This document shows positions 5,871 through 44,915 of a DNA stretch of 64,000 nucleotides, piece after piece. Both the position numbers and the translations under genes were made by a program. Numbering within the stretch: position 1 is the stretch's first letter; each line of letters opens with the position of its first letter. Source of the stretch: Synechococcus sp. CBW1108 (GTDB lineage Bacteria > Cyanobacteriota > Cyanobacteriia > PCC-6307 > Cyanobiaceae). Location: positions 930,001 to 994,000 of the forward strand of contig NZ_CP060395.1 of NCBI RefSeq assembly GCF_015840335.1, read 5' to 3'. A model generated the notes under the pieces. The model did no database searches. It worked only from the letters and a program-made list of their open reading frames with translations, and had not been told where the DNA came from.

Positions 5871-5911
5871 AGGGTGAAGGGCGTGATGCCCGTGGCGCGA
5901 AGAACGGATCG

Positions 5912-7264
5912 ATGAGCAAAAAAACCGTGGCCTTCGCCCACCTGGGCTGCGAGAAGAACCGGGTAGACACTGAGCACATGCTCGGCCTGCTGGCCGAGGC
6001 GGGCTACGGCGTGAGCGCCGATGAGGCCGACGCCAGCGTGGTGGTGGTCAATACCTGCAGCTTCATCCAGGAGGCCCGCGAGGAGTCGGTGCGCACCCTG
6101 GTGGAACTGGCGGAGCAGGGCAAGGAGCTGATCATCGCCGGCTGCCTGGCCCAGCACTTCCAGGAGGAGCTGCTCGAAAGTCTTCCCGAAGCCAAAGCGA
6201 TCGTGGGCACCGGCGACTACCAGCACATCGTCAGCGTGCTGGAGCGGGTCGAAGCCGGCGAGCGGGTCAACCAGGTGAGCGCCACCCCCACCTTCGTGGG
6301 CGATGAGCACCTGCCCCGCTACCGCACCACCAGCGAGGCGGTGGCATACCTGAAGGTGGCCGAGGGCTGCGACTACCGCTGCGCCTTCTGCATCATTCCC
6401 CACCTGCGTGGCAACCAGCGCTCCCGGCCGATCGAGAGCATTGTGGCTGAGGCGCAGCAACTGGCGGCCCAGGGGGTGCAGGAGCTGGTGCTGATCAGCC
6501 AGATCAGCACTAATTACGGTCTCGATCTGGCCGGCAAGCCCCAGCTGGCGGAGCTGCTGCGGGCCTTGGGGGAGGTGGAGATCCCCTGGGTGCGGGTGCA
6601 CTATGCCTATCCCACCGGGCTGACGAGCGAGGTGCTGGCGGCCTACCGGGAGGTGCAGAACGTGCTGCCCTACCTGGATCTGCCCCTGCAACACAGCCAC
6701 CCGGAGGTGCTGCGGGCCATGAACCGCCCCTGGCAGGCCGACGTGACCGCAGGGGTGCTGGGCCGCATCCGCGAGCAGCTGAGCGACGCGGTGCTGCGCA
6801 CCACCTTCATCGTGGGCTTTCCCGGCGAAACCGAGGAGCACTTCCAGCACCTGCTGGATTTTGTGGCCGAGCAGCGCTTCGACCATGTGGGGGTGTTCAC
6901 CTTCTCTGCTGAAGAGGGCACCCCTGCGGCAGAACTACCGGATCAGGTGCCCCACGGGATCGCACTCGAGCGGAAGGACCGCCTGATGGCCCTGCAACAA
7001 CCGATCGCCGCAGCGCTCAACGCCGCCTGGGTGGGGAAGGTCGTGGATGTGCTGATCGAGCAGGAGAACCCCAGCAGCGGCGAGATGCTCGGCCGCTGCG
7101 CTCGCTTCGCCCCGGAGGTGGACGGCGAGGTGCGGGTGAGTCCGGGGGAGGGGGGACTCTGTGCCGCCCCGGGCACCCTGGTGAAGGTGCGCATCACAGG
7201 CGCGGACACCTACGACCTACTGGGGGTGGTGGTGGGAGCAGCTGCCGAGCTCAGATCAACTTGA
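5912..7264 (+). CDS. rimO: Ribosomal protein S12 methylthiotransferase RimO
   Basis: Radical SAM enzyme that methylthiolates an aspartate of ribosomal protein S12. The N-terminal methylthiotransferase domain has the three Fe-S cysteines C13, C49 and C78; the radical SAM cluster is C153-xxx-C157-xx-C160 (CDYRCAFC), followed by IIPHLRG. The C-terminal TRAM domain (about residues 375-445) is present. The length of 450 is usual. The last 14 nt overlap the opposite-strand petL reading frame. Confidence 0.96.
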
Positions 7265-36834: not shown

Positions 36835-37386
36835 ATGGGCACCAACGAGCCCATCCCCGCCCCCGTGCCCCGCAGCCAACGCAACGACAACTTCATCGAC
36901 AAGAGCTTCACGGTGATGGCCGACCTGATCCTCAAGGTGCTGCCCACCAACCGGCGGGCCAAGGAGGCCTTCGCCTACTACCGCGATGGCATGAGCGCCC
37001 AGGCCGATGGCGAATACGCAGAAGCTCTGGAGAACTACGAGGAAGCCCTCACCCTCGAAGACGACCCCAATGACCGGGCCTTCATTCTTTACAACATGGC
37101 CCTGGTTTTCGCCAGCAACGGCGACCATGCCAAGGCGCTTGATTTCTACGGCCAGGCCCTCGATCTCAACAGCAAGATGCCCCAGGCCCTCAATAACATG
37201 GCCGTTATCCACCACCACCTGGGCTCGATCGCCGAAGAAAAGGGTGACGCCGATGAGGCCGACCGCTGCTTCGACCAGGCCGCCGACTTCTGGGCCAAGG
37301 CCATTCGCCTGGCCCCCAACAACTACATCGAGGCCCAGAACTGGCTCAAAACCAGCGGCCGCGGCAGCGTGGACGTGTATTTCTAA
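36835..37386 (+). CDS. ycf3: Photosystem I assembly protein Ycf3
   Basis: 183 residues from ATG 36835 (GGAG 10 nt upstream). Family members begin with [15 protein letters not shown], so GTG 36865 is a possible start. Three TPR units are visible ([56 protein letters not shown]). It is a chaperone for PSI core assembly. A degenerate copy of its last 24 codons lies at 42647-42718, on the far side of the island. Confidence 0.94.
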
Positions 37387-37393
37387 ACAGCCG

Positions 37394-37540
37394 ATGCGAC
37401 TGCAACCATCGGCGAGGGGATTCATTTTACTTGCCGGTCTGGCATGGCTTGTATTCGCATGTCTGACACTGGTTGATTTCAGCCTCGGCAAGATACTTGG
37501 CAGCCTGGGCAGCTTGCTGAAGGGCGACCTCTACTATCTA
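37394..37540 (+). pseudogene. PAP2-family phosphatase, 5' fragment split by the insertion sequence
   Basis: 49 codons from ATG 37394, 7 nt after ycf3, with one hydrophobic helix (FILLAGLAWLVFACLTLV). The frame runs into the left end of the insertion sequence at 37541. Removing the element and one copy of the 6-bp target repeat joins it in frame to 39307-39804, giving a 214-residue protein. Confidence 0.85.
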
Positions 37541-39300
37541 GGGACTCCTGAAAAAAGAACCGCAACCTGGATCCGATCGCAGCCAAATAGCAGGGCGTAG
37601 GCAGCCCAAACGCACGGTTATCCAGTGGCCAGTGATTGGTTTGTTTCAAGCTGCCAAATGTTCCTGAGCCCCATCCAGAGACTACCTGGCCATTTCCAGG
37701 TACATAACCAGGCAAAAATAGTGATAAAAAAGAGGCGGAGGAGCCTCCGGATCTTCTCTGCGCACATCACCACAAAGGCCATGGAGATGGAGTTCTCTGC
37801 ACCTTTGCTCAGCCGAGCCATAATCAAGTCCAGTGAATACTTCCTCTTCCCTGATCCAAAGCATCCCTCCACTTCATTTCGCCTCCGCTGGTCAGCGCTT
37901 AGCTGCTGCTTGTGAGCAGCACTGATCTCTGGATTCTTCGGCGGCCTCCCCAATCGCTTACCAGAGAGCCGTATATCGTTCCGAGTGCAGAAGTTTCGGT
38001 TCTTGGTATTGATGTAGATTCGATCAGCGCAGATTCGCTCGGGGTAGCAGCCATGCTCTTGCTTGTATTTCATGGCCTGTGGAATTAAGTCTTCGGATTC
38101 GTTGTATGGATCCCAGCTGATCCTGTGCAGGAAGGCAAAGCCATTTCGCACAGAAACACTAATTTTGGCGCCAAACTCAACAGCAGCTCTCGTTTTACCA
38201 CGAACCATGGGCCGAACGTGTCGCTGAACCAAGTTCACGATACGATCGGGCATGCTGCGCGTTTTCGAGTACAGCAGGATGCTTTGCTGGCGGTGCAGCT
38301 CGCTGATCACGAGGAGCTTCTGCCACCAATGGGTCTTCAAGCCCGAAAGCATTGCCCCGGAGTGGATCAGGGCATCAATAGCATCAAGATTCCGCTGCAG
38401 ATAGTCCAGCTGGCGTCGTATCGTGGCTTTGATTTTGCGGCGACGCGGCTTTTTCTGCTTAGCAACCCTGAGGAAATTGGCACGCGCCTTGCCACGGTCA
38501 TATCGGGGACTGTGTTTCCGTAGGTCTGAATTCTGTTCGCAGAGATCGTCGATGATCCGTTCGGTCGACTCCCTCGCTTCGTTGAGCAACTTCAAATCAG
38601 TTGGATAGGTAATGTCGGCTGGTGTGCACGAGGCGTCAATGCTGAGTGTTCCCCAATTCTTGCCTTCTGGCCAATCGGCCGGCTTCACAAAGTCGTCAAG
38701 TGAGAGCTGGTTGTCAGCATAGGCACTTGGATCGTTAGTGTCGTCGTCATCTTGTTGTGACGCCACAACCTCCATCAGCATGGCCTTGCCCCGCTCGGCA
38801 ATGAGTTCATTGATCCGGGTGAGTTCCTCTTCGGAGAAACGCTTGCGGAAATGAACCATCATTGATGGGTCGAATGGTGCCTTGCTGGAATAGCCGGCAT
38901 AGCCAAGGAAATACTGCATGTAAGCGTTTTCTCGGATCTGCTCAACGGTCTCCTCGTCGGTCAGACCAAGCCGCTGCTTGATGAACAGCGCACCAAATGC
39001 CAGCCGTACAGGCTTTGCTGGGGCGCCAGTGGTGGGATTGAACTGAGGTGCATATGATTCCTCCAACTCTTCCCATGGCATCAGGGAGGAGAAGATTACC
39101 CAGCGATTGTCCGTGTCCAACGTGCCGCCAAAAGGCAGATGGAAATCCTCGATTGAGAGCTGCCCGTTATGGCGTTTCTGGTACATCTGCAGTGCTCAGC
39201 AGTTGTAGCAATCGTCAATTGCCCTGAACGAGCCCAGTTTATCAAATTTAGATCGCTGAAACAAGCTGCGCTGCAGTCGATTTGGCTTTTCAGGAGTCCC
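37541..39300 (-). mobile_element. Insertion sequence, copy 1 (IS5/IS1182-like)
   Basis: 1760 bp, bounded by 14-bp terminal inverted repeats GGGACTCCTGAAAA/TTTTCAGGAGTCCC. Flanks are a 6-bp direct repeat TATCTA (37535-37540 and 39301-39306), consistent with a target duplication. It encodes one transposase on the minus strand. It sits inside a PAP2-phosphatase gene. It is nearly identical to copy 2 at 40664-42424; the only difference I found is one T fewer near the right end. Confidence 0.93.
37618..39186 (-). CDS. DDE transposase of insertion sequence copy 1
   Basis: 522 residues: N-terminal PFGGTLDTDNRWVIFSSLMPW and FDPSMMVHFRKRFS (DUF772-type), then the catalytic region with Asp in LSIDASCTPADITYPTD, Asp in RICADRIYINTK, and Glu in RRRNEVEGCFGSGKRKY. 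It is complete, with no internal stop, so it may still move. The family is the IS5/IS1182 superfamily; the exact group is not assigned. Confidence 0.93.
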   Translation of the reverse strand: MYQKRHNGQLSIEDFHLPFGGTLDTDNRWVIFSSLMPWEELEESYAPQFNPTTGAPAKPVRLAFGALFIKQRLGLTDEETVEQIRENAYMQYFLGYAGYSSKAPFDPSMMVHFRKRFSEEELTRINELIAERGKAMLMEVVASQQDDDDTNDPSAYADNQLSLDDFVKPADWPEGKNWGTLSIDASCTPADITYPTDLKLLNEARESTERIIDDLCEQNSDLRKHSPRYDRGKARANFLRVAKQKKPRRRKIKATIRRQLDYLQRNLDAIDALIHSGAMLSGLKTHWWQKLLVISELHRQQSILLYSKTRSMPDRIVNLVQRHVRPMVRGKTRAAVEFGAKISVSVRNGFAFLHRISWDPYNESEDLIPQAMKYKQEHGCYPERICADRIYINTKNRNFCTRNDIRLSGKRLGRPPKNPEISAAHKQQLSADQRRRNEVEGCFGSGKRKYSLDLIMARLSKGAENSISMAFVVMCAEKIRRLLRLFFITIFAWLCTWKWPGSLWMGLRNIWQLETNQSLATG

Positions 39301-39306
39301 TATCTA

Positions 39307-39804
39307 TTTCGAATCTGGGGAAGCCTATGGCCCTGGCTCCTTTTTTCGATAGCCCTAGCTATTAGTTACACGGGAAAAGAGCAAGCCAATCGCACCAAAC
39401 AAAGCGCCTTTCTCTTGCTCAGCCCAGTCCTTAGTGGCGCCTGGGCCGAGCTGCTCAAAATGACCCTGCGCCGCGAAAGGCCCTCCCAGCTGGAAGCCTA
39501 TGTTTTCCGCCCATTCACCGATCGGCCCTGGTCAAGCAGTGGCCTTGGCCTGCCCAGCTCCCATGCGGCCGTGGCCTTTGGCGGGAGCATGGCCCTGATG
39601 ATTCTGTTTCCCCGTTTGCGCTGGCCGGCCCTGGTGATGGCAGTGGGCTGCGCGCTCACCCGGGTGGCAAGCGGAGCTCATTACCCCACCGACATGTACT
39701 TGGGGGCCTTGGTGGGCTCAGTCACCGGCCTTTTGCTAGCCCATTGGCTCAAAATCCCGAGCCTGCGGTTTGGGCATGCACAACCAAGCCCCGACCAGCC
39801 CTAG
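39307..39804 (+). pseudogene. PAP2-family phosphatase, 3' fragment
   Basis: 165 codons that continue the frame of 37394-37540. PAP2 motifs are intact: K-x6-RP (KMTLRRERP), PSSH (LPSSHAAVAF) and R-x5-H-x3-D (TRVASGAHYPTD). Several membrane helices. It now lacks its own start, although translation could begin inside the insertion sequence. The last 69 nt overlap the convergent second PAP2 gene. Confidence 0.85.
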
Positions 39805-40395
39805 GGCCGCACCGATGCAGATATCACTTAAATAGTGATTATTGGTGGCCACCCGCTGAAGTGATGCCAAAATAGCTAGAATCAAAAATGCAGGGCGCCC
39901 AGCTGGCAAATACCACCAAAGAGATGCTGCCAAACCTGCGGCAACAGCAGCATGTCCGGAAGGGAAACTCATCACTGCAGAGCGTCCATGAATTCCAACG
40001 TCTAGGAGTTGGCGCCCAAATGTATCAAAAAAACTATTGGCGTTTTCAAGGATTGCCTTTCCGGGCCTAACCCGGGCAACGATTAGCTTGAGCAAAACTA
40101 CAATCAACCCGCCCAGATAGGTGCCTGCAATTAGGCGCAGGGCACGCATACGCTCCTCGGAACGGCGCCATCTAAATTGGCTACAGGCTATAACCCCAAT
40201 CAAAACCATGGCTGCGCCAGTGCCATGACCACCGATTTCGGAAAAACTCAGAATCCGTCCTATTTCCTTAGGAATAGGATTCAGATCCATGAGTCGAGCA
40301 ACCTGGATATCCGCCATCAGGCTCAGCATGCCAGCAGCTATTAGGAAAGTTACGATGCCTAGCAATGCTCGCTTCTTGCCGAAGATTTTTCTCAT
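39736..40395 (-). CDS. PAP2-family membrane phosphatase
   Basis: 219 residues, intact. Motifs: K-x6-RP (KLIVARVRP), FPSGHAA, and R-x5-H-x3-D (QRVATNNHYLSD). About five membrane helices. The family includes phosphatidate and undecaprenyl-pyrophosphate phosphatases; the substrate is unknown. DNA is AT-richer than the core genes. Convergent with the broken PAP2 gene and may have been acquired with it. Confidence 0.9.
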   Translation of the reverse strand: MRKIFGKKRALLGIVTFLIAAGMLSLMADIQVARLMDLNPIPKEIGRILSFSEIGGHGTGAAMVLIGVIACSQFRWRRSEERMRALRLIAGTYLGGLIVVLLKLIVARVRPGKAILENANSFFDTFGRQLLDVGIHGRSAVMSFPSGHAAVAAGLAASLWWYLPAGRPAFLILAILASLQRVATNNHYLSDICIGAALGLVGAWLCMPKPQARDFEPMG

Positions 40396-40657
40396 GGTGA
40401 CCAGGCGATCCTATCTAAACGTAGCCTATAAAGCCGACTCTGACCATGGGGATATTGAATATAATGTCACAATTTAGGCGCAAATAAAATAATCTGATGC
40501 CAGTTAGCGTCAGTCGCTGCTCAGCCCAGCCGCTCCAACGAACGCGATCGGAGGACAAAGGCCATATATTCAGAACTTTAGATCCGGCGCAGACCGCAAG
40601 GCCGGAATACTGATGCTTGTTTCAACAATGGTCAGGTCAATTATGCTATCCCTAGAA
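40396..40657. other. AT-rich non-coding stretch between the PAP2 gene and insertion sequence copy 2
   Basis: No reading frame with recognisable content. The base composition is AT-richer than the core. It would hold the promoter of the minus-strand PAP2 gene. I see no clear terminator, repeat or RNA. Confidence 0.5.
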
Positions 40658-40663
40658 TAATTA

Positions 40664-42424
40664 GGGACTCCTGAAAAAAGAACCGCAACCTGGATCCGAT
40701 CGCAGCCAAATAGCAGGGCGTAGGCAGCCCAAACGCACGGTTATCCAGTGGCCAGTGATTGGTTTGTTTCAAGCTGCCAAATGTTCCTGAGCCCCATCCA
40801 GAGACTACCTGGCCATTTCCAGGTACATAACCAGGCAAAAATAGTGATAAAAAAGAGGCGGAGGAGCCTCCGGATCTTCTCTGCGCACATCACCACAAAG
40901 GCCATGGAGATGGAGTTCTCTGCACCTTTGCTCAGCCGAGCCATAATCAAGTCCAGTGAATACTTCCTCTTCCCTGATCCAAAGCATCCCTCCACTTCAT
41001 TTCGCCTCCGCTGGTCAGCGCTTAGCTGCTGCTTGTGAGCAGCACTGATCTCTGGATTCTTCGGCGGCCTCCCCAATCGCTTACCAGAGAGCCGTATATC
41101 GTTCCGAGTGCAGAAGTTTCGGTTCTTGGTATTGATGTAGATTCGATCAGCGCAGATTCGCTCGGGGTAGCAGCCATGCTCTTGCTTGTATTTCATGGCC
41201 TGTGGAATTAAGTCTTCGGATTCGTTGTATGGATCCCAGCTGATCCTGTGCAGGAAGGCAAAGCCATTTCGCACAGAAACACTAATTTTGGCGCCAAACT
41301 CAACAGCAGCTCTCGTTTTACCACGAACCATGGGCCGAACGTGTCGCTGAACCAAGTTCACGATACGATCGGGCATGCTGCGCGTTTTCGAGTACAGCAG
41401 GATGCTTTGCTGGCGGTGCAGCTCGCTGATCACGAGGAGCTTCTGCCACCAATGGGTCTTCAAGCCCGAAAGCATTGCCCCGGAGTGGATCAGGGCATCA
41501 ATAGCATCAAGATTCCGCTGCAGATAGTCCAGCTGGCGTCGTATCGTGGCTTTGATTTTGCGGCGACGCGGCTTTTTCTGCTTAGCAACCCTGAGGAAAT
41601 TGGCACGCGCCTTGCCACGGTCATATCGGGGACTGTGTTTCCGTAGGTCTGAATTCTGTTCGCAGAGATCGTCGATGATCCGTTCGGTCGACTCCCTCGC
41701 TTCGTTGAGCAACTTCAAATCAGTTGGATAGGTAATGTCGGCTGGTGTGCACGAGGCGTCAATGCTGAGTGTTCCCCAATTCTTGCCTTCTGGCCAATCG
41801 GCCGGCTTCACAAAGTCGTCAAGTGAGAGCTGGTTGTCAGCATAGGCACTTGGATCGTTAGTGTCGTCGTCATCTTGTTGTGACGCCACAACCTCCATCA
41901 GCATGGCCTTGCCCCGCTCGGCAATGAGTTCATTGATCCGGGTGAGTTCCTCTTCGGAGAAACGCTTGCGGAAATGAACCATCATTGATGGGTCGAATGG
42001 TGCCTTGCTGGAATAGCCGGCATAGCCAAGGAAATACTGCATGTAAGCGTTTTCTCGGATCTGCTCAACGGTCTCCTCGTCGGTCAGACCAAGCCGCTGC
42101 TTGATGAACAGCGCACCAAATGCCAGCCGTACAGGCTTTGCTGGGGCGCCAGTGGTGGGATTGAACTGAGGTGCATATGATTCCTCCAACTCTTCCCATG
42201 GCATCAGGGAGGAGAAGATTACCCAGCGATTGTCCGTGTCCAACGTGCCGCCAAAAGGCAGATGGAAATCCTCGATTGAGAGCTGCCCGTTATGGCGTTT
42301 CTGGTACATCTGCAGTGCTCAGCAGTTGTAGCAATCGTCAATTGCCCTGAACGAGCCCAGTTTATCAAATTTAGATCGCTGAAACAAGCTGCGCTGCAGT
42401 CGATTTGGCTTTTTCAGGAGTCCC
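40664..42424 (-). mobile_element. Insertion sequence, copy 2 (IS5/IS1182-like)
   Basis: 1761 bp with the same inverted repeats as copy 1 and flanked by a different 6-bp direct repeat TAATTA (40658-40663 and 42425-42430). Different target repeats show two independent insertions rather than a duplication of the region. Both copies lie in the same orientation, 1.36 kb apart, and could recombine to delete or carry the PAP2 segment between them. Confidence 0.93.
40741..42309 (-). CDS. DDE transposase of insertion sequence copy 2
   Basis: 522 residues, identical in sequence to the transposase of copy 1, with the same DDE residues (IDASCTPAD, CADRIY, NEVEGCF). The identity points to recent transposition. 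Confidence 0.93.
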   Translation of the reverse strand: MYQKRHNGQLSIEDFHLPFGGTLDTDNRWVIFSSLMPWEELEESYAPQFNPTTGAPAKPVRLAFGALFIKQRLGLTDEETVEQIRENAYMQYFLGYAGYSSKAPFDPSMMVHFRKRFSEEELTRINELIAERGKAMLMEVVASQQDDDDTNDPSAYADNQLSLDDFVKPADWPEGKNWGTLSIDASCTPADITYPTDLKLLNEARESTERIIDDLCEQNSDLRKHSPRYDRGKARANFLRVAKQKKPRRRKIKATIRRQLDYLQRNLDAIDALIHSGAMLSGLKTHWWQKLLVISELHRQQSILLYSKTRSMPDRIVNLVQRHVRPMVRGKTRAAVEFGAKISVSVRNGFAFLHRISWDPYNESEDLIPQAMKYKQEHGCYPERICADRIYINTKNRNFCTRNDIRLSGKRLGRPPKNPEISAAHKQQLSADQRRRNEVEGCFGSGKRKYSLDLIMARLSKGAENSISMAFVVMCAEKIRRLLRLFFITIFAWLCTWKWPGSLWMGLRNIWQLETNQSLATG

Positions 42425-42430
42425 TAATTA

Positions 42431-42646
42431 GTTCCCCCCTGACCCGCCCTGCCCGCCTAGCCTTTACTCGCCCAAGCGCCATCTTCGAGAACTGGGTTAA
42501 ATCCCCGCAAGGGGAAATAGTAATAGCTTCTTGATTCTGAAGCACATGGCCAGCTACCCCATTAAGTTTGGCGATCTGGGTCTTCGTAGCTAAATTGAAA
42601 ACTACACTTGGCTCGTGGCAACCAGAAATGGCCACAGGCAAATGGG
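42431..42646. other. Non-coding stretch between insertion sequence copy 2 and the ycf3 remnant
   Basis: No supported gene. A 75-codon frame on the minus strand has no recognisable motif and runs into the insertion sequence. A small hairpin AAATCCCC-GCAA-GGGGAAAT is visible near 42500. The stretch may be decayed island DNA. Confidence 0.5.
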
Positions 42647-42718
42647 CCCAATAACTACATCGAGGCCTAGAACTGGCTCAAGACCAGCAGTCGCGGCCGC
42701 GTTGGCGTGTATTTCTGA
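42647..42718 (+). pseudogene. Degenerate copy of the 3' end of ycf3
   Basis: 24 codons read PNNYIEA-stop-NWLKTSSRGRVGVYF-stop and align codon for codon with the last 24 codons of ycf3 ([23 protein letters not shown]). The Gln codon has become TAG and five residues differ or changed. It lies at the radA-side border of the island, so the island is bracketed by ycf3 3' sequences. Confidence 0.85.
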
Positions 42719-42731
42719 GTCGCCTCAGGCC

Positions 42732-43163
42732 TCAGAGATCAGCAGGATTCAGCCAGCGCAACCCTTTGAAGCGGGCAAAGCCCCGATCAAAGGACACCCA
42801 GGTGGCGCCTATCTCCAGGGCTGCTGCTGCCAGGTACACATCGGTCATGTCCTGAGAGCTGGGCCGATGGTCAAGCACCATCTGACGGAACAGGTCCCAA
42901 TGGCGGGGGCCTGGATCCAGGATCGACACCGCCGGAGAAGCGGTGAGGCTGTCGATAAAGGCAATGGCGACGGCCGCATCCAGGGGTTCGCTGAACACGC
43001 GCCGGTCGGTGGCCACCCTCAGGAAGCCGCTCACCACCACAGAGAACAGGCCCAGACCCTCCGGAACGGCACGATTCGCCAAGAGCCAGGCACGCGCCTC
43101 GTGATGGCGTGGCGAGATCTGCAGGCAGGCCTGCACCAGCACATTGACGTCAACGCACACCAT
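42732..43163 (-). CDS. VapC-like PIN-domain toxin
   Basis: 143 residues from ATG 43163 (ATG 43166 is an alternative). PIN-domain acids are visible: MVCVDVNVLVQA (Asp5), DVYLAAAALEIGA, and WVSFDRGFARF. Such proteins cleave tRNA or rRNA. It starts 5 nt after the antitoxin stop. It borders the island next to radA. Confidence 0.88.
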   Translation of the reverse strand: MVCVDVNVLVQACLQISPRHHEARAWLLANRAVPEGLGLFSVVVSGFLRVATDRRVFSEPLDAAVAIAFIDSLTASPAVSILDPGPRHWDLFRQMVLDHRPSSQDMTDVYLAAAALEIGATWVSFDRGFARFKGLRWLNPADL

Positions 43164-43168
43164 CACGC

Positions 43169-43429
43169 TCAGCGCAGCTGCTCCAGCGGCAGGCCCTCAT
43201 CAAGCAACGCGCGGAGTGCCGACATGTCATCAAGATCAACACCTGGGCGCAGCACACCCCCCCCATGCACCGGCAGGGGAGGAAGCTCGCTCCGCGCCAG
43301 CTGACGCGCTCGATCGAGATAGGCCTGCAGCGCCGCCTCGAACACCGCGCCCACCGAAGCGCCCTCCCGGGCAGCCTGCAGCTTGGCCTGCACGTAAAGA
43401 GCGTCGCTGATGGTGAGCGTGGTGCGCAT
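43169..43429 (-). CDS. VapB-like antitoxin
   Basis: 86 residues. MRTTLTISDALYVQAKLQAAREGASVGAVFEAALQAYLDRAR is a ribbon-helix-helix DNA-binding pattern, and the C-terminal part (PGVDLDDMSALRALLDEG) would bind the PIN toxin. Partner of the downstream VapC. Such antitoxins usually repress their own operon. Confidence 0.85.
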   Translation of the reverse strand: MRTTLTISDALYVQAKLQAAREGASVGAVFEAALQAYLDRARQLARSELPPLPVHGGGVLRPGVDLDDMSALRALLDEGLPLEQLR

Positions 43430-43466: not shown

Positions 43467-44915
43467 TCAGGCCCGATCGTCGGCCGGATTGACCCCCAGG
43501 GCCGCCACCAGGGCTTCGGCCACCGTGCCCGCCTCCAGCAGCTGCAACCCCAGGCTGGCGGCCGTCTTGGCCAGGCCGCTGCCCTTCGGCAGCACCGCCC
43601 GGGTGAAGCCGAGCCGCGCCGCCTCCTGCAGCCGCAGCTCCAGCTGGCCCACAGGCCGCAGCTGGCCGCCCAGGCCCAGCTCCCCCACCAGCACCGTGCC
43701 GGGCGGCAGGGTGAGGTCGCGGTAGCTGGCCACCACCGCCGTGGCCACGCCCAGATCCGCTGCGGGCTCCTCCACCTCCAGGCCGCCGGCCACCGCCAGG
43801 TAGCAGTCGAAGCGCGACAGGGGCAGGCCCAGGTGTTTTTCGAGCACCGCCAAAATCTGGTGCAGGCGGCCCACGGCGATACCGGTGGCACTGCGGCGCG
43901 GGCTTGCATAGCTGGTGGTGCTCACCAGGGCCTGGAGCTCCACCACCAGGGGCCTGGTGCCCTCACAGGCCACGATCGTGGCGGTGCCTGCACTGGGTTC
44001 GTCGCCGCCCAGAAACAGCTCGCTGGGGTTGGTGACCTCGGCCAGGCCCAGATCACGCATTTCGAACACCCCCAGCTCGTGGGTGGCACCGAAGCGGTTC
44101 TTCACCGCCCGCAGCAACCGGTGGCTGGCGAAGCGGTCGCCCTCGAAGGTGAGCACCGCATCCACCAGGTGCTCGAGCACCTTCGGGCCCGCCAGGGCAC
44201 CCTCCTTGGTGACGTGGCCCACCAGCAGCAGGGCCGTTTCCTGGCGCTTGGCGATGCGGGCCAGGGCGGCGGCACATTCGCGCACCTGGGCCACCGAGCC
44301 GGGGGCACTGGCCAATTCGGCGTCATGGAGGGCCTGGATGCTGTCGATGATCGCCACCGCCGGCCGCAGACTCTCGAGCTCCTGCAGCACCAGCTCCAGG
44401 TCGGTTTCGGCCAGGAGCTGGAAATTGGCGCTGGGGGGGACATCGGCCTGGGTGGTCGGGGCCAGCCGGCGCCAGCGCAGCTTCACCTGCTGGGCCGATT
44501 CTTCGGCACTCACGTAGAGCACCGAGGCGCGGCTGGCCATCGAACAGGCGCTCTGCAGCAGCAGGGTGCTCTTGCCGATGCCCGGGTCGCCGCCCACCAG
44601 CACCAGGGAGCCCGGCACCAAGCCCCCGCCCAGCACCCGATCGAGCTCGCCGTAGCCGCTGCTGAGCCGCTGCAGGGCCCGCTCCCCCACCGCCTGGATC
44701 GGCTCGGAACGCCTCGGCTGCCCTGCCGAGCCGCCTTCCAACGCCTTGACGCCAGCGGCAGCCGCCACCGGTCGCCGCCTGCGGCTGTCGGCAGCCGGGC
44801 CGGCCTTCTGCTCCACCAGGGTGTTCCAGCTGCCGCAGGCGGCGCACTTGCCAAAAAACTGGCGCGTCTGGGCCCCGCAGCTGGTGCAGACAAAAACGGA
44901 GCTGGGCTTGGCCAC
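43467..44915 (-). CDS. radA: DNA repair protein RadA
   Basis: 482 residues. N-terminal zinc finger CTSCGAQTRQFFGKCAACG, RecA-like ATPase with Walker A GGDPGIGKST, Walker B AIIDSIQ, the RadA KNRFGATHE motif, and a C-terminal Lon-like domain (DLGVATAVVASY, GLGGQLRPV). It helps branch migration and recombinational repair. Divergent from rpaB. Confidence 0.95.
   Translation of the reverse strand: MAKPSSVFVCTSCGAQTRQFFGKCAACGSWNTLVEQKAGPAADSRRRRPVAAAAGVKALEGGSAGQPRRSEPIQAVGERALQRLSSGYGELDRVLGGGLVPGSLVLVGGDPGIGKSTLLLQSACSMASRASVLYVSAEESAQQVKLRWRRLAPTTQADVPPSANFQLLAETDLELVLQELESLRPAVAIIDSIQALHDAELASAPGSVAQVRECAAALARIAKRQETALLLVGHVTKEGALAGPKVLEHLVDAVLTFEGDRFASHRLLRAVKNRFGATHELGVFEMRDLGLAEVTNPSELFLGGDEPSAGTATIVACEGTRPLVVELQALVSTTSYASPRRSATGIAVGRLHQILAVLEKHLGLPLSRFDCYLAVAGGLEVEEPAADLGVATAVVASYRDLTLPPGTVLVGELGLGGQLRPVGQLELRLQEAARLGFTRAVLPKGSGLAKTAASLGLQLLEAGTVAEALVAALGVNPADDRA

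Follow-up and report, generated by a model that had tools for sequence, protein, structure and literature searches.

An old accessory island bracketed by ycf3 3' ends beside radA in Synechococcus sp. CBW1108

Gene ends duplicated or displaced by incoming DNA

In integrative elements with attachment sites in gene 3' ends, the 3' end of the gene is directly repeated at both borders of the element. The island described here, which lies between ycf3 and radA in a window of 64,000 nucleotides (the whole stretch of Synechococcus sp. CBW1108 DNA that was analysed; contig NZ_CP060395.1, positions 930,001 to 994,000), is like these elements in that direct repeat and unlike them in carrying no recognised integrase, in having a broken gene at its border, and in that no reuse of the site was seen.

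Laboratory recombinants provide a second comparison. In PMC3240628, 56 of 60 recombinants from Escherichia coli conjugation yielded the PCR product that indicates a partly duplicated end of the anchor gene, and the 14 that were sequenced had duplications of 109-950 bp, which the authors attributed to single-crossover integration of a partly deleted circle, while four of the 60 appeared to result from homology-facilitated illegitimate recombination (HFIR). The homologous anchor, the non-homologous join, the insert between them, and the duplicated anchor end are shared with the ycf3 locus, although the E. coli case (PMC3240628) is a laboratory event at lacZ and the ycf3 locus preserves a natural, fossil event whose tail has decayed and whose donor would have to be supposed. 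For type VI secretion (T6SS) clusters of Vibrio, an HFIR-like model was proposed in PMC5361080 for displaced effector 3' ends, which lie with arrays of orphan immunity genes; there, too, a new module at an anchored gene pushes the old 3' end downstream. The module ends in Vibrio vary among strains, for which those authors suggest selection, whereas ycf3 is conserved and its displaced tail looks like debris. A term search of PMC5101192 yielded nothing on end joining.

Layout of the ycf3-radA locus

Table 1. Features from ycf3 to radA, in coordinates of the window.
Feature	Position	Strand	Evidence or remark
ycf3, photosystem I assembly protein, intact, 183 aa	36835-37386	+	NCBIfam NF002725, E 1.1e-92
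Direct-repeat copy 1, functional ycf3 3' end	37310-37386	+	
PAP2 gene a, 5' part, codons 1-49	37394-37540	+	tblastn; intact 214-aa PAP2 homologue in G015
IS copy 1, left target duplication TATCTA	37535-37540		
IS copy 1, inside PAP2 gene a	37541-39300		transposase 37618-39186 (-)
PAP2 gene a, 3' part, with right target duplication (39301-39306)	39301-39804	+	PAP2 Pfam match
PAP2 gene b, 219 aa	39736-40395	-	Pfam PF01569, E 2.8e-20
IS copy 2	40664-42424		own 6-bp duplication TAATTA at 40658-40663 and 42425-42430
PMT/ArnT-like glycosyltransferase, C-terminal piece, 5' part missing	42435-42642	-	tblastn to full homologue
Direct-repeat copy 2, displaced ycf3 3' end with in-frame TAG	42643-42718	+	
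vapC, native neighbour of the ycf3 end	42732-43166	-	TIGR00028, E 1.8e-38; adjacency in G005, G006, G007, G010
vapB-like antitoxin	43169-43429	-	position beside vapC and tblastn to relatives; no match in Pfam or NCBIfam
radA	43467-44915	-	TIGR00416, E 5.2e-178

In the first-pass annotation, the last codons of ycf3 were said to recur in degenerate form before vapC and radA. This was borne out, as positions 37315-37384 and 42647-42716 are direct repeats with 89% identity over 70 nt (E 5.1e-19), and DNA matching ycf3 at E ≤ 0.001 was found at these two places only in the whole 3.23-Mb genome. With one 1-nt gap allowed, the second copy starts at about 42643 and ends with the stop codon at 42718, so that the repeat comprises about 75 nt (about 25 codons) of the ycf3 end and the join falls at about ycf3 codon 159. 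A 14-nt tail pattern with up to two mismatches occurred twice in the window, versus 0.07 times expected in shuffles. The stop codon and several changes claimed for the remnant were likewise seen (an in-frame CAG to TAG, and others).

The remnant and the DNA downstream of it align with the ycf3-vapC junctions of G006, G007, and G010 (taken from the named records L087, L086, and L088), i.e., native flank and gene end are retained beyond the insert; the G005 stretch in this alignment ended 1 base past the stop codon, and its ycf3-vapC junction was read separately. Because the junction between remnant and vapC is like that of relatives, the remnant is most simply read as the native ycf3 end, which the insert would have pushed 5.3 kb away, in line with the earlier view that DNA entered at the 3' end of ycf3 and left a tail on either side. 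No second full ycf3 was found in the 357 of 400 sampled family genomes that matched a 43-residue query at E ≤ 0.001, and a second tail was present in only two of them, the window's own genome (G000) and G015, in a search that more decayed tails could escape. A second ycf3 match in G386 was rejected as a paralogue; it lies at a contig end (positions 5874-5978 of a contig of 5,980 bases). An in-frame stop in the ycf3 of G004 was likewise set aside, as it falls upstream of the conserved part, where the sequence is variable.

Both the two PAP2 genes and the two insertion sequences listed earlier are present between the repeats, except that the first PAP2 gene, which starts 7 nt after the ycf3 stop, is one gene split by IS copy 1 and is intact in G015; to the accessory genes noted before, a minus-strand glycosyltransferase gene was added, of which the 3' end is present. 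Once both IS copies are subtracted, together with a single copy of each duplication, the insert measures 1,723 bp, and its GC content without IS is 53.2% versus 65.5% for the window, in agreement with the AT-richer DNA described. The PAP2 genes are convergent and overlap tail to tail by 69 nt (39736-39804), with a similar overlap in G015. PAP2 gene b gave one weak PHROGs match of unknown function, five small open reading frames of the insert (60-80 aa) matched neither Pfam nor PHROGs, and, beyond the IS transposase and PAP2, family profile searches of the 1.7-kb insert recognised no integrase. Judged from their families, the inserted genes may serve to remove phosphate from a lipid carrier or an envelope lipid.

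The glycosyltransferase piece, once taken for a Phd-type antitoxin (42440-42640, dropped because the stretch matches a glycosyltransferase C-terminus), has no Pfam match by itself; in tblastn it matches residues 460-530 of a 562-aa homologue at G000:C1:1242401 (42% identity, E 1.7e-17), and the match of its G015 counterpart extends to residue 544 (E 1.6e-18). Full-length homologues belong to Pfam PMT_2 or PMT, "ArnT-like" being our own label and not a family call. The break in this gene lies within a few nt of the start of the ycf3 tail, so that two broken genes meet at the right junction, and this border, with the piece fused to ycf3 codon ~159, is non-homologous. Full homologues adjoin PAP2 gene b relatives in G002, G011, and G012, in the latter two together with a relative of PAP2 gene a. 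The window's own genome holds a further homologue with a fragment of PAP2 gene b (1242401-1244619), which was rejected as the source of the insert, as identities of 61% (PAP2 gene b fragment) and 42% (glycosyltransferase) mark it as a paralogue; this place (L178) adjoins genes that, read by eye, resemble those for an acyl carrier and a ketosynthase.

Both IS copies encode an IS5-family transposase (NF033578), have the same orientation, and are identical except for one 1-nt gap; the genome holds five full-length copies at ~100%, IS copy 1 being one of them. Each copy is bounded by its own 6-bp target duplication, and G015 has the same genes with neither copy at either site; hence the island did not arrive with the IS copies, which inserted after it, as had been proposed.

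The locus in relatives and the age of the island

G015, which is 97.6-98.8% identical to the window's genome in the DNA of four flanking genes, carries the same island and a remnant with the same TAG. Its island is split inside the glycosyltransferase piece, over contigs C20 and C24, and the sequence at both breaks resembles the termini of a different IS with a duplication of 8 bp, across which the contigs would presumably join. On contig C20 of G015 (~1785-1826; L053), a 15-nt stretch from the end of ycf3 stands three times in tandem before PAP2 gene a, each copy terminated by a stop, versus a single one in the window. Between the two genomes, identity falls to 71% at 37365-37470 and to 84% at 39337-39436, with most surrounding windows at 95-100%; both patches look like allele replacement. 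The first runs from about ycf3 codon 178 into PAP2 gene a (71 of 100 columns identical versus 95-100 in most neighbouring windows), which suggests that other ycf3-PAP2a alleles exist and recombine.

The empty site was present among the 15 other same-genus genomes: vapC directly follows ycf3 in four (G005, G006, G007, and G010; vapB and radA follow in three, the G006 contig stopping inside vapC), and ycf3 adjoins radA, an arrangement that the first-pass annotation had proposed to look for, in six (G001, G002, G004, G008, G011, and G012). Other inserts are present in G009, G013, and G014, and the contig of G003 stops inside ycf3. A relative of PAP2 gene a was found in 11 of 400 family genomes and lies beside ycf3 in G000 and G015 only, those of the other nine being on a different contig or >50 kb from ycf3; in a class-wide sample, 2 of 291 genomes had one at E ≤ 1e-15 (the window's own and same-genus G013). 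Among 80 named loci (L), several of which are from the same genomes as the G handles, radA was downstream on the same contig in 56, within 250 bp in 43 and further in 13; for the other 24, often at a contig end or from a distant cyanobacterium, no radA was found downstream. Accessory genes thus commonly settle at this convergent junction of ycf3 and radA. In two Cyanobium genomes (L097 and L101), apparent cytochrome oxidase subunit genes, read by eye, lie there.

The event had been called old, and the data agree: with island and TAG common to both, it is supported that the island is older than the split of G000 and G015 and was inherited by both. Their remnants differ at 5 of 75 sites, three of these in the first codon beside the 1-nt gap, a level that neutral drift could give, as 5.4% of four-fold sites differ. 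At four-fold sites, the distance from G000 to G015 is 0.056, and that from either to G007 and G010 is 0.31-0.32. Seven changes relative to the consensus of G006, G007, and G010 are common to both remnants, of which two (codons 166 and 180) also occur in the functional ycf3 of G000, so that five remain over 72 nt. By estimate, the remnant would have been freed about half way along the stem, with a wide error because the estimate rests on these five changes.

Routes to the island

The best account, which we put at a probability of roughly 0.58, is one-sided homologous recombination anchored in ycf3 together with one illegitimate join. The ancestor shared by the window's strain and G015 would have taken up a fragment consisting of a ycf3 end, PAP2 gene a, PAP2 gene b, and part of the PMT/ArnT-like gene, which would have recombined homologously within ycf3 while its other end was joined illegitimately to the recipient's ycf3 at codon ~159. 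The route may have been linear HFIR or a single crossover of the fragment closed into a circle, both of which would give the same product. The incoming fragment would have supplied ycf3 with an intact 3' end, and the recipient's own last ~25 ycf3 codons would have been left beside vapC and then decayed; later, the window's lineage would have received two insertions of the IS5-family element, and G015 one of another IS. One-sided recombination leaves a border of this kind, where two genes are broken at a single point and homology is confined to the opposite side. Of the "site-specific or homologous integration" suggested by the first-pass annotation, the homologous part fits better, provided that an illegitimate join is placed at the other end. 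In 12 windows along the functional ycf3, a G007-group genome was closest or tied in 10 (codons 160-183 closest to G007; exceptions codons 55-84, closest to G008, and codons 115-144, closest to G013), and no clear signal of a foreign 3' tract was seen; the donor, if any, would thus be a close relative, which would leave none. A donor with ycf3 beside the cargo was found in none of the 400 sampled family genomes, an absence from a sample that counts weakly; it weakens one-sided recombination and not a local duplication. The diverged patch that runs from ycf3 into PAP2 gene a speaks indirectly for such a donor.

Such a duplication, in which two illegitimate joins would have trapped foreign DNA at a break while the ~75-nt end of ycf3 was copied to both sides by repair synthesis, is the most serious competitor, though clearly the less probable account. 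It amounts to a long target duplication and needs no donor with ycf3; the repeat is short, and the same tails would be left by it. The two tails look like alleles of the same clade, and the functional one is free of a foreign mark, as this account would have it, while the diverged ycf3-PAP2a patch suggests other lineages with that junction and speaks against it. Rather unlikely is a larger duplication of ycf3 around a longer island, with a later deletion that fused the interior of the glycosyltransferase gene to that of the second ycf3 copy: the breakage of two genes at one point would be explained, but one extra step is required, and a longer second ycf3 is present neither in G015 nor elsewhere among the matching family genomes, the G386 match being at its contig end. 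It is more doubtful still that incoming DNA has been anchored at the ycf3 3' end over and over in this lineage, with the three tandem tails of G015, the far remnant, and the diverged patch recording several independent insertions and replacements.

Site-specific integration at an attachment site in the ycf3 3' end by a since-lost integrase, the other half of the earlier suggestion, is highly improbable. The direct repeat at both borders would fit it, and the three tandem tails of G015 could trace repeated events, but the insert holds no recognisable integrase and its right end cuts a gene. Other islands ending in ycf3 3' repeats, which the first-pass annotation had also proposed to look for, did not appear: in 18 other ycf3-radA intervals (167-3,784 bp), each searched with the last 24 nt of its own ycf3, no match was better than the best one from 50 shuffles, and weak blastn repeats (14-29 nt, E 0.002-0.01) all lay beyond the intervals. 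The ycf3 end had no match in 50,697 phage records, no carrier of it was found in viral contigs (three stretches fitted the peptide pattern, none encoding a relative), and a literature search found no paper joining ycf3, genomic island, integrase, and Synechococcus. A composite transposon, with the genes as cargo between the two IS copies, can practically be dismissed; near-identical copies in the same orientation do flank PAP2 gene b and part of PAP2 gene a, but each has its own 6-bp target duplication with no single one outside both, one copy sits inside PAP2 gene a, and G015 has the genes without either copy.

With one-sided recombination as the preferred reading, the island looks like an ordinary way of bacterial DNA gain and not a new mobile element; the kind of event is already known, and the ycf3 island is a new instance of it. 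It also carries a warning, namely that a repeated gene 3' end alone is no evidence of an integrase. The locus is a natural, bracketed example of how a core gene can gain neighbours and stay intact while its old end persists as drifting debris.
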